The notes beneath the pieces were generated by a model that ran no database searches, had not been told where the DNA came from, and worked only from the letters and a program-made list of their open reading frames with translations. Positions 56,406 through 64,000 of a stretch of 64,000 bases of DNA are shown in pieces (the first letter of the stretch is position 1; each line of letters opens with the position of its first letter). This stretch comes from Flavobacteriales bacterium (GTDB lineage: Bacteria > Bacteroidota > Bacteroidia > Flavobacteriales_D > Crocinitomicaceae). The stretch covers positions 1 through 64,000 of the forward strand of contig JAKSBJ010000304.1 of assembly GCA_022361195.1 (NCBI GenBank), given 5' to 3'. A program made the translations under genes and the position numbers.

Positions 56406-56503
56406 ATTAGTTGATGTTGTCTTGAATAGTGAATGAGTTTATCTCGTTCAACCTTTTGAGAAGAAGTACGTAAAGGTTATAACTGCTTATTTTATACCTT
56501 TTG

Positions 56504-59503
56504 ATGATTCGCCCAAAATTGCTGTTGTGGTGCCTTGTTCCGCTTTTCATTTATGCTTGTAGTGAAAAGGGGACAGAGGATGGACTGTCCAATGCAGAGT
56601 CTACTTTGACCATTGATTGTGATATGGAGGATGTTGTGGAGAATGGTGATAAGACTCATTTCAAAACTTCAAATCCTGAGTATACTCTTTCAAATGGGAA
56701 AACGATAAGTAGTGATTTTGCACGAAGCGGAAGTCATTCTTTGAAGCTCAATGAAGAGAGACAGTATGGTCTAAATCTCAAGCTAGATGGTTTAACTGAG
56801 CGAAATTACATCCAGATTTCAATTTGGCAAAAAGATGATTGTCCTAATGGAACCTTGCAGGCTACTTTAAGTGGCGGGGAATCGGAATATAATTATCGTA
56901 CTTTTTATGAAGAGCTGGAAGAAAGAGAAAATGGTTGGGTTAAACATCAGTTATCTTTTACGGTAGGGCCTGGTGTTGATTCTATACACGTTTTCATCTT
57001 CGCTGGAGGTAAGACGACTTATTTTGACGATTTTTCCTTTCAAAAACTAGCTTCAGCACCTAAAAATGATTTACCACTCCGATTGAATTTGAACATTCCG
57101 GATTCATCCAAACAAACACTTGATTCTTATATAGCTGATGCTTTAAATTATGAAGCCATTCCAATAGCGGATAAGGCTTACGTTAATGCACACATTTTAG
57201 ATGGCCAGGATACTGCTCAGGTTGAAATGAAATTGAAAGGAGATTGGACGGATCATTTGAAATTGGGAAAAGAGTCCTATCGAATAAAAATTAAAAGCGA
57301 TCATGCTTATGAGGGATTAAAATCTTTTTCTATTCAGCATCCTTATTGCCGAAAGTATCTTGATGAATGGATTTTGCATAAGATGGCGGATAGAGAGGAT
57401 ATTTTGACAACAACCTATGATTTCATCAACGTTTCAATTAACGGGCTGGATTGTGGTGTTTATGCTTTAGAGGAGCATTTTGATAAGCAACTTTTAGAGA
57501 GTAGAAATCGCCGTGAGGGTCCTATATTGAAATTTGATGAATCTGGATATTGGGCGGCCATAAAGGCTTTTGAAGGTTTTGATAGTTTGAGATACATCCC
57601 TTTCTTTCAGCAAAGTACCGAGGGTGTATTTAAGAGTAATAGAACACGAAAATCTCCACAGTTGAGCAAACAGTTTGAGGAGGGGAGAAAATTACTCCGT
57701 TTGTTCAAAGAGGGGTGTTTGAATTTGGATGAGATCTTTGATATCGACCGATTAGCGAAGTTTTATGTTTTGATGGAGTTGAGTGGAAGTGATCATGGTT
57801 TGAGGTGGCATAACCGTCGTTTTTACTACAATCCAATTACCCAAAAATTAGAGCATATCGCTTATGATATATTACCTTATTTCTACGACAAACCTTACAA
57901 GGGATATGTCATGCATAAGCTCAAACAGTTTAAACAAATCCACGAATACAGCTTTGACAATGCAATCCTATTCAACAAAGAATTTAAGGATAAGTACCTC
58001 TATTATCTTGAGCAAAAAACCAATCCAGCTTATCTAGATTCCATCTTTACTGAGTTAGATGAGGAAATGACCATTTGTCTGGCGGCAATTCAAGGAGAAA
58101 CACCGACTTATCAATTCCAAAAAGACCGCTATTACAAAAATGCAGCAATTCAACGAAAGCAAATTCCTGAATTATCAGAATTATGGGATCAACGAATAAA
58201 AGAGCATCAATTGTGGTCTGATTGGGTGAAGGAGCAACCATTTAAACAATTTTCAAAAGGTTTGTTTTTGAGAGAGGTGGCGCTTAATGTCTATTGTGAA
58301 GATGCTGAAAATGGCTATCAAATCACTGCAGAAAATTATCATTTAGGAGCTATTGAAATTCTTGCTTTTAAAACTAAATCAAAAGAAAATAAGGTCATTG
58401 TTTTAGAGCAACCAGTTCGTTTAAAGGGATATCAGGGAATAGCGGATACCGCTTTTTTTGGAACCTTGTTAAACCCTAAAAAAGTTTATTACAGAACTGT
58501 AGATAATCCTGGTGTTTTTCATTCGCAAAAAATAATACCATGGTCGCGGCCTGTTGGTAAATCAAGCCGGTCTCAATTATTGGCACAGTTTGACGCTAAT
58601 TCACCACTTTATACCATTCGAGGTAAGGAATTAATCTTTTCTGGAAGTGTGAAAATTGAACAATTAATTTTGGTGCCAAAAGAGTACACTGTTAAAATTG
58701 CTGCCGGATCAGAAATTGAGTTTGCCAATGGTGGTGGATTGATAGCGACTAATAGCTTTGCGGCTCTTGGAACTGAAGCAAATCCTATTCACATCTTTTG
58801 CCGTGACAGTAGCTCTAATGGGGTAACGGTTTTAGGAGGTGAAGAAGCCCGTTTAAGTCATGTTGAGTTGGATGGGTTGTCGAATTTAAATTACAAAAAC
58901 TGGGAGTTAACGGGAGCTTTGACAATTTATGAAACACCAGCTTTCCTTGATCATTGTACTATCTCCAATAACCATTCAGAGGATGCATTAAATGTGGTAC
59001 GAAGCCATTTTGAAATCAGTAATTTAACGATAGGAGAAACCTATTCGGATGGTTTTGATGCCGATTTTTGTACTGGAAATTTAAGTCATTCCACTTTTGT
59101 TAATACAGGAAATGATTGTATTGATTTTTCGGGCTCTAAGGTATTCATTCAGCATATTGCAATTACTAATTCAGGAGACAAGGGAATTTCGGGAGGTGAA
59201 CGTTCGCAATTGACAGTTGAAAATATTGACATAAACGGAGCGGTTACTGGTTTAGCTTCTAAGGATGGCAGTTTAATTGAAGGTGAAAATATCACTGTGC
59301 TTAATGCGGAGTTTGGATGTGCCGCTTTTCAAAAGAAACCGGAATATTCGGGAGCTTCTATGTCGCTTAAAAAATGTGAAATCAAAGAATCTTTAAAAGA
59401 GATCTTGGTTGAACTAGGTTCTGTTGTAACTCTTAATGGTGAAAGGGTAGAGGGGACAGCTAAAATCGACATTGATTTACTCTACGCTCGTTTTGAGAAA
59501 TAA
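56504..59503 (+). CDS. CotH-like/right-handed beta-helix lipoprotein
   Basis: 999 residues with a lipoprotein signal (lipobox IYAC, Cys19). Residues about 30-180 form a carbohydrate-binding-like jelly-roll, followed by a CotH-like kinase region (about 195-500; VEMKLKGDWTDHL, YRIKIKSDHAYEGLKSFSIQHPYCRKY, SINGLDCGVYALEEHFDKQLLE). Known CotH kinases have an acidic WDxD-type motif; here it reads AYDILPYF, so activity is uncertain. The C-terminal part (about 720-990) is a right-handed beta-helix with parallel repeats such as HVELDGLSNLN, CTISNNHSED and KVFIQHIAITNSGDKGI. A TTG three bases earlier is in frame; ATG is chosen. Surface location is inferred. Confidence 0.82.
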   Translation: MIRPKLLLWCLVPLFIYACSEKGTEDGLSNAESTLTIDCDMEDVVENGDKTHFKTSNPEYTLSNGKTISSDFARSGSHSLKLNEERQYGLNLKLDGLTERNYIQISIWQKDDCPNGTLQATLSGGESEYNYRTFYEELEERENGWVKHQLSFTVGPGVDSIHVFIFAGGKTTYFDDFSFQKLASAPKNDLPLRLNLNIPDSSKQTLDSYIADALNYEAIPIADKAYVNAHILDGQDTAQVEMKLKGDWTDHLKLGKESYRIKIKSDHAYEGLKSFSIQHPYCRKYLDEWILHKMADREDILTTTYDFINVSINGLDCGVYALEEHFDKQLLESRNRREGPILKFDESGYWAAIKAFEGFDSLRYIPFFQQSTEGVFKSNRTRKSPQLSKQFEEGRKLLRLFKEGCLNLDEIFDIDRLAKFYVLMELSGSDHGLRWHNRRFYYNPITQKLEHIAYDILPYFYDKPYKGYVMHKLKQFKQIHEYSFDNAILFNKEFKDKYLYYLEQKTNPAYLDSIFTELDEEMTICLAAIQGETPTYQFQKDRYYKNAAIQRKQIPELSELWDQRIKEHQLWSDWVKEQPFKQFSKGLFLREVALNVYCEDAENGYQITAENYHLGAIEILAFKTKSKENKVIVLEQPVRLKGYQGIADTAFFGTLLNPKKVYYRTVDNPGVFHSQKIIPWSRPVGKSSRSQLLAQFDANSPLYTIRGKELIFSGSVKIEQLILVPKEYTVKIAAGSEIEFANGGGLIATNSFAALGTEANPIHIFCRDSSSNGVTVLGGEEARLSHVELDGLSNLNYKNWELTGALTIYETPAFLDHCTISNNHSEDALNVVRSHFEISNLTIGETYSDGFDADFCTGNLSHSTFVNTGNDCIDFSGSKVFIQHIAITNSGDKGISGGERSQLTVENIDINGAVTGLASKDGSLIEGENITVLNAEFGCAAFQKKPEYSGASMSLKKCEIKESLKEILVELGSVVTLNGERVEGTAKIDIDLLYARFEK

Positions 59504-62800: not shown

Positions 62801-63679
62801 CTAAAGAACTTTAGGTTCTTTGTTTCGTCTAAATCCAATTCTGTATAAATCCATCGTTCCAAAATGCTCGAACGATAAAATAGCCAATTGAAAGTACTTT
62901 TCGTATCGCTTATATAGTTCTAATCCATAAGTGTCGATAACCATGGCTTTGTGCGAACGTAAGCGTTTTAACCATTGTTTTAAGGTTTTGGCGTAATGTA
63001 AACGATCATTCCTGACGGATGTAATTTCAAATAAATGTTCACTTGCTGCACAAATTTCAGAAAGTCGTGGTAAATCGGACTCAGGAAAAATTTCAGTGGC
63101 GAAAAACTCACTGAATTGGTCACGGGTCATATTTCCACAGCCAATGGTTTGCAATGACAAATAGCATCCGTCATTGAGCCATTCATGACATTTTCTAAAA
63201 AAGTCTCGATAACCTTCAATTCGGTCTGCCTCCGAAAGGTCTTGTTTGGCAAAGTGCTCAAAAGCTCCAATTGAAATAATGGCATCATACTTTTTTTCAG
63301 CTTGGTGATCTTGCCAATTTTCCAAACGGGTATCGATTCCCGGAATTTGTAAATTATCAACCCAGTTTACTTGTTCTTGACTTAGGGTTAATCCAACTCC
63401 TGATTCGGCATTATAATGGGAGGTTAAACGCTCCAAAAGGCTTCCCCAACCACAACCTATATCTAACATGTGTTTGGCGTTTTGAGCATGGGCGTTTTGA
63501 ATATGATAATCTAGCTTACGAATTTGGGCTGACTCTAAAGTATCTTCCTCTTCCCATAAGGCCGATGAATACACCATGTTTTCATCCAGCCAGAGTTTAT
63601 AGAAATTATTTCCTTTATCGTAATGATATTGAATGGCATCCTGAGATGCTCCTTTTAATTCAACTTCCGAATTATCCAT
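62801..63679 (-). CDS. Cyclopropane-fatty-acid-synthase-like methyltransferase
   Basis: 292 residues of the CMAS/CFA synthase family, which methylate unsaturated acyl chains using SAM. The pattern is clear: YHYDKGNNFYKLWLDENMVYSS (18-39), TLESAQIRKLDYHI (47-60), SAM motif LDIGCGWG (72-79), SIGAFEHF (136-143, Glu141 conserved) and YERY-like KRYEKYF (257-263). However, where canonical enzymes have Cys (YSCAY) and His (LLHTI) as bicarbonate ligands, this has Ser39 and Gln177. It may be a different acyl or polyketide methyltransferase. It overlaps the ACP gene by eight bases and so is coupled to it. Confidence 0.87.
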   Translation of the reverse strand: MDNSEVELKGASQDAIQYHYDKGNNFYKLWLDENMVYSSALWEEEDTLESAQIRKLDYHIQNAHAQNAKHMLDIGCGWGSLLERLTSHYNAESGVGLTLSQEQVNWVDNLQIPGIDTRLENWQDHQAEKKYDAIISIGAFEHFAKQDLSEADRIEGYRDFFRKCHEWLNDGCYLSLQTIGCGNMTRDQFSEFFATEIFPESDLPRLSEICAASEHLFEITSVRNDRLHYAKTLKQWLKRLRSHKAMVIDTYGLELYKRYEKYFQLAILSFEHFGTMDLYRIGFRRNKEPKVL

Positions 63680-63947
63680 GCTCTTTAATGGTTAAACCTT
63701 CGAGGTAAGCTGAAACCGCAGCAATGGAAGGGTAGTTGTAAAGTGATTTTGGATCTATTTCAATGTTGAGCCATTCTCCAACTTGATAAGAGATCTCAAC
63801 CATGGTGATAGAATCAATTCCAAAAGTTTCAAAAGAAGCTTCTACATCAATATCTTCCTTGGGTAAATCCAATGCTTCCATTATATAATCAGACAGCCAT
63901 TCCTGAATTTCTGCCTGTGTTTTTAAAGTACTTACTTGATCACTCAT
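63672..63947 (-). CDS. Acyl carrier protein
   Basis: 91 residues of the PP-binding family. The phosphopantetheine site is Ser46 in FGIDSITMVE, a PKS-like GIDS context rather than the GxDSL of housekeeping AcpP. It holds substrates as thioesters. Its 3' end overlaps the CMAS-like gene by eight bases. The upstream region (63948-64000) shows no box and is probably within an operon that extends beyond the window. Confidence 0.9.
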   Translation of the reverse strand: MSDQVSTLKTQAEIQEWLSDYIMEALDLPKEDIDVEASFETFGIDSITMVEISYQVGEWLNIEIDPKSLYNYPSIAAVSAYLEGLTIKEHG

Positions 63948-64000
63948 AGATTTTGTTTTATCGTTTATTGTTGTTTTCTGTAAATCATTTCCTGTGGCGG

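Follow-up and report, generated by a model that had tools for sequence, protein, structure and literature searches.

This locus raises the question of what a methyltransferase of the cyclopropane synthase family makes, and on which carrier, when the residues of its bicarbonate site are altered. The gene lies at the edge of the window (the whole stretch of DNA analysed, 64,000 nucleotides), and the contig runs on beyond it to 74152. The open reading frame at 62801-63679 is real (minus strand, ATG start, 292 aa), and its product belongs to the superfamily, scoring 206 bits against Pfam CMAS (PF02353; cut-off 27). The AlphaFold model (pLDDT 90.5, pTM 0.89) has its nearest fold in CmaA1 (Z 34.3, 266 aligned residues, rmsd 2.0, 33% identity), followed by other mycolic enzymes, E. 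coli Cfa (Z 30.6) and plant N-methyltransferases (Z 28.8); PDB relatives by sequence are CmaA1, MmaA2, CmaA2, PcaA and CFAS. The protein is a single catalytic domain without the N-terminal membrane-lipid-binding domain, and it falls well under every NCBIfam equivalog cut-off for cyclopropane synthases, both for the E. coli-type phospholipid CFAS (NF008686; 162 bits versus 400) and for the mycolic acid cyclopropane synthases (NF040660; 155 bits versus 390). The features referred to below are as follows.

62801..63679, minus strand: SAM-dependent methyltransferase of the CMAS family (PF02353), 292 aa, of the Gln177 clade (Pfam, AlphaFold model, tree)
62993..62995, minus strand: Tyr229, codon TAC, kept bicarbonate ligand (E. 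coli Y317, CmaA1 Y232; alignment)
63149..63151, minus strand: Gln177, codon CAA, at the position of the bicarbonate-ligand His (E. coli H266, CmaA1 H167; alignment)
63257..63259, minus strand: Glu141, codon GAG, kept bicarbonate ligand (E. coli E239, CmaA1 E140; alignment)
63563..63565, minus strand: Ser39, codon TCG, at the Cys position (E. coli C139, CmaA1 C35; alignment)
63672..63947, minus strand: stand-alone acyl carrier protein (ACP), 91 aa, with the phosphopantetheine motif GIDS (Pfam PP-binding, 3.7e-14)
63965..64000, minus strand: 3' end of a DesA/JamB-like membrane fatty acid desaturase, 334 aa (PF00487), which spans contig positions 63965-64969 (L002:3966-4970)
Contig 65002-66741, minus strand: fatty acyl-AMP ligase (FAAL), 579 aa, heading the operon and wholly past the window (NCBIfam and PDB matches)

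The original prediction held that two residues that hold the bicarbonate in characterized enzymes, a Cys and a His, are replaced here by Ser39 and Gln177, while Glu141 and the Tyr region are kept. Alignment with E. coli Cfa and the mycobacterial enzymes, the check that it had proposed, places all of these residues where they had been read, and the kept Tyr is Tyr229. The two replacements differ in weight. In the E. coli enzyme, the only side-chain ligands of bicarbonate that are named are Glu239, His266 and Tyr317, with no Cys among them (PMC11387697). By alignment, one of the three ligands is thus replaced in the methyltransferase, which keeps Glu and Tyr and has Gln in place of the His of a cyclopropane synthase proper. 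No compensating His or Cys is found elsewhere at the site in the alignment, and Cys181, four residues past Gln177, is not conserved. The amide of Gln is able to stand in for the imidazole NH as a hydrogen-bond donor, so loss of bicarbonate is not established by the exchange.

Whether the replacement is peculiar to this protein was settled by comparison with 16 members of the surrounding clade, eight from gene cassettes like the one described below (the source genome of the window, Polaromonas, Thalassospira, Pseudonocardia, two Sphingobium, Rhodococcus and Tistrella) and eight that come from alpha- and gammaproteobacteria and lie outside such cassettes. All 16 clade members have Gln at position 177, where each of the 104 other CFAS/CMAS sequences used for comparison has His; these controls are mostly from Burkholderiales and not independent, and the outcome is unchanged with 20 sequences of wider diversity taken from them. 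The equivalents of Glu141 and Tyr229 do not vary in either set. The Burkholderiales CFAS (∼ 34% identity) were the main yield of a contig search with the methyltransferase alone, and served as controls, not as orthologues. In the tree, the Gln clade together with L032 splits from all other sequences with support of 100/99. Given this clade and the 16/16 versus 104/104 distribution, we read the His-to-Gln change as old and fixed, and the Cys-to-Ser change as ordinary variation. Position 39 is Cys in six clade members, Ser in five and Ala in four, one sequence being truncated. We therefore reject a functional weight for Ser39, and the claim of two lost bicarbonate residues stands for His and falls for Cys.

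Four sequences were kept out of the 104. L032, from Streptomyces, is the long branch that joins the Gln clade, yet it carries His. L025 (L145:1329-2501) is a full-length Bacteroidota CFAS nested in the ordinary CFAS clade that has undergone an independent His-to-Gln change, and as such provides a natural control for the effect of the substitution. L019 and L021 are divergent at several of the compared positions.

The methyltransferase gene is the last of an operon in the order FAAL, desaturase, ACP, methyltransferase, all on the same strand, that runs past the window. FAAL and desaturase genes are 32 nt apart, desaturase and ACP 17 nt, and the ACP gene overlaps the methyltransferase start by 8 nt, which bears out the predicted coupling of the two. 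The ligase is identified as a FAAL by NCBIfam FAAL subfamilies and by PDB FAALs such as 3kxw and FadD23/28/32. Because FAAL, fatty acid desaturase and ACP, the set that marks a JamABC-type cassette (PMC8406139), lie together at L002:3673-6742, and because the desaturase is related to one from a polyyne-type cluster (see below), the operon is, as judged from its genes, a JamABC-type cassette to which an enzyme of the CMAS family has been joined. It shares with the JamABC alkyne/polyyne cassette the three genes as one unit, but differs in having the methyltransferase and in having no rubredoxin, thioesterase or extra desaturases. The FAD-binding oxidoreductase of the two-gene Tms (10-methyl) system is absent: the neighbours of the methyltransferase are ACP, desaturase, FAAL and a convergent FabF. 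Since the GC content of the operon (38.7%) is close to that of the window (37.1%), contamination by a foreign contig looks unlikely. Upstream of the FAAL gene, on the same strand, contig 67108-67926 (L002:7109-7927) encodes an acyl-amide hydrolase/acyltransferase of the AAT type (PF03417), whose start resembles a signal peptide and which may have a part in processing an acyl product.

Matching FAAL-desaturase-ACP-methyltransferase cassettes are found on plasmids of Polaromonas, Thalassospira, Tistrella, Rhodococcus and Pseudonocardia, with methyltransferases 42-51% identical to that of the window. The cassette is thus spread over three bacterial phyla, often on plasmids. A FAAL is present in 8/8 cassette loci versus none of 80 ordinary CFAS loci (flanks up to 8 kb), and the desaturase in six of the eight. 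After the Polaromonas cassette come another desaturase and two PKS proteins; those of Thalassospira, Pseudonocardia and Rhodococcus have in addition a P450 and a thioesterase-type hydrolase. When the plasmids were searched with the desaturase alone, the same five cassette desaturases were among the best matches, as was one (41% identical) from a Streptomyces cluster of FAAL, three desaturases, ACP, thioesterase and rubredoxin, a gene set known from polyyne clusters (PMC8406139). Identities between cassettes correlate for methyltransferase and desaturase (rho 0.67, from few, non-independent pairs). The desaturase tree, with two long rows, left the branching unresolved, and the methyltransferase tree did not recover monophyly of the cassette enzymes inside the clade.

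Both cassettes without a desaturase are on Sphingobium plasmids (L029:6216-10764 and L033:6191-10639). There, its place is taken by a LuxI-type synthase (PF00765, 3.7e-25) and a small ORF that weakly matches a LuxR-type DNA-binding domain, in one cluster with ACP, Gln177 methyltransferase and FAAL. This suggests that the Sphingobium product is a homoserine lactone whose modified acyl chain comes from the FAAL, not from general fatty acid synthesis. Our literature search yielded no publication describing this cassette, and none on a homoserine lactone with a cyclopropyl group.

The remaining eight clade members, also with Gln177, have no FAAL or desaturase nearby. In L143:5357-10220, a Gln177 methyltransferase 46.7% identical to the window protein is last in an operon with a GST-type protein, a fumarylacetoacetate hydrolase and a homogentisate dioxygenase. 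With eight members outside the cassette, this one ending an operon of homogentisate/tyrosine catabolism, the clade as a whole is not tied to ACP substrates. At L137:3980-6390 and L138:7240-9664, Gln177 relatives adjoin an uncharacterized protein of 482-488 aa with weak PilZ and methyltransferase matches.

Searches covering 59 relatives and samples of the order (199 genomes), the class (247) and the phylum (395) gave no orthologue outside the source genome, and that genome itself has no second CFAS and no other desaturase of the cassette's family. Vertical inheritance within Bacteroidota is therefore unsupported. The lack of a Bacteroidota orthologue and the location of the known relatives on plasmids (of limited weight, as the plasmid search returns plasmids only) suggest that the operon was acquired horizontally.

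We consider it probable that the four genes form a carrier-protein cassette in which a fatty acid is loaded on ACP, desaturated and C-methylated at the cis double bond. As had been predicted, the context favours an ACP-bound substrate, because FAAL, desaturase, ACP and methyltransferase recur together in distant phyla and the enzyme lacks the membrane-lipid-binding N-terminal domain. We infer the substrate, the order of steps and the product as follows. The FAAL would activate a free fatty acid and load it on the small ACP, the desaturase would add a cis double bond (possibly more) to the bound chain, and the methyltransferase would then methylate this double bond. The proton would be taken by Glu141 directly, or by way of an anion that Glu141, Tyr229 and Gln177 would continue to hold, to yield an acyl-ACP one carbon longer. 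The chain would be handed to a host-specific acceptor: PKS in Polaromonas, P450 and thioesterase in Thalassospira and relatives, and the LuxI-type synthase in Sphingobium. In the genome of the window, a possible taker is a single highly reducing PKS on contig C219 (L168:5869-19715; KS-AT-DH-MT-ER-KR-ACP-TE, 2805 aa), which has a PlsC-type acyltransferase, a phosphopantetheinyl transferase, a CotH-domain protein and an AMP-ligase as neighbours. Window positions 56501-59503 encode a lipoprotein-like protein of 1000 aa with a C-terminal repeat region; its middle part, judged by eye, resembles a CotH kinase domain. A CotH protein also adjoins the C219 PKS.

What the cassette makes is less certain than how it is built. 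For a cyclopropane we see a little under an even chance, a methyl- or methylene-branched chain is a substantial possibility, and an altogether different acceptor for the methyltransferase is improbable. One rival account has the enzyme work as a normal cyclopropanase whose substrates are ACP-bound alkenes, in which Gln177 still hydrogen-bonds bicarbonate and the exchange is tolerated without a change of product. Two of the three side-chain ligands, Glu and Tyr, are indeed kept in all 16 clade members, an independent His-to-Gln change has occurred in L025 amid ordinary CFAS, and the hydrogen-bonding capacity of Gln is general knowledge. However, His in 104/104 other CFAS/CMAS argues that the position is constrained, and ligand mutants of the E. 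coli enzyme are described, in a passage of PMC11387697 drawing on earlier work, as less active. We regard this account as tenable but short of likely. Loss of a different proton from the cationic intermediate would instead give a methyl- or methylene-branched chain. The clade-wide change falls at the site that holds the base, and the family offers precedents in UfaM and TmsB, CFAS-family C-methyltransferases that act on unsaturated acyl chains and form no cyclopropane. UfaM, as described in a passage of PMC10876521, methylates with migration of the double bond to give an 11-methyl-12-trans product, and TmsB forms a methylene product (PMC7791843). Both use phospholipids, unlike the substrate proposed here, and the FAD reductase with which TmsB is paired is absent from our operon. 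Moreover, because TmsB had been chosen on the strength of conserved residues at the bicarbonate site (PMC7791843), these residues do not predict the product, and the exchange to Gln is not the known route to branching. As an account of the enzyme, branching is rather unlikely in our estimate.

A further reading takes the clade off alkenes altogether, with N, O or activated-carbon methylation of small molecules, the cassette enzyme acting on a head group or a β-ketoacyl-ACP. The non-cassette Gln177 relatives in unrelated contexts, including tyrosine catabolism, are consistent with it, as are the related plant N-methyltransferases, which share the fold (Z about 28). The enzyme is nonetheless nearer to CmaA than to these in fold and sequence, and a desaturase in 6/8 cassettes points to an alkene as the natural acceptor; we think this reading improbable. 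Returning to the C-methylating carrier-protein cassette, we speculate, while holding it doubtful in its full breadth, that the Gln-for-His clade of the CMAS fold uses an altered or bicarbonate-free base, and that cyclopropyl or methyl-branched acyl-ACP starters pass from a mobile FAAL(-desaturase)-ACP cassette into varied end products, among them a signal of the acyl-homoserine-lactone type with a modified chain in Sphingobium.

Among characterized enzymes, the mycolic acid cyclopropane synthases (CmaA1, CmaA2, PcaA, MmaA2; PF02353) are the closest parallel, sharing the fold, the single catalytic domain, the Glu and Tyr of the site, the SAM motif and the use of acyl substrates outside the membrane. 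The present enzyme differs from them in the clade-wide Gln for His167, in its 33% identity and in its operon with FAAL, desaturase and ACP. With E. coli Cfa and the phospholipid CFA synthases it has in common the catalytic domain and the equivalents of Glu239 and Tyr317, but not the N-terminal lipid-binding domain or His266 (here Gln), at about 30% identity.

What bound bicarbonate does in cyclopropane synthases is known chiefly from the E. coli enzyme. In nature, a clade with a fixed Gln that keeps Glu and Tyr allows the role of each ligand to be tested in enzymes that evolved without the His. The cassette itself, present in three phyla and often carried on plasmids, flags modified fatty acids on carriers that have yet to be explored, and in its Sphingobium form it hints at a possible new acyl-homoserine-lactone variant.
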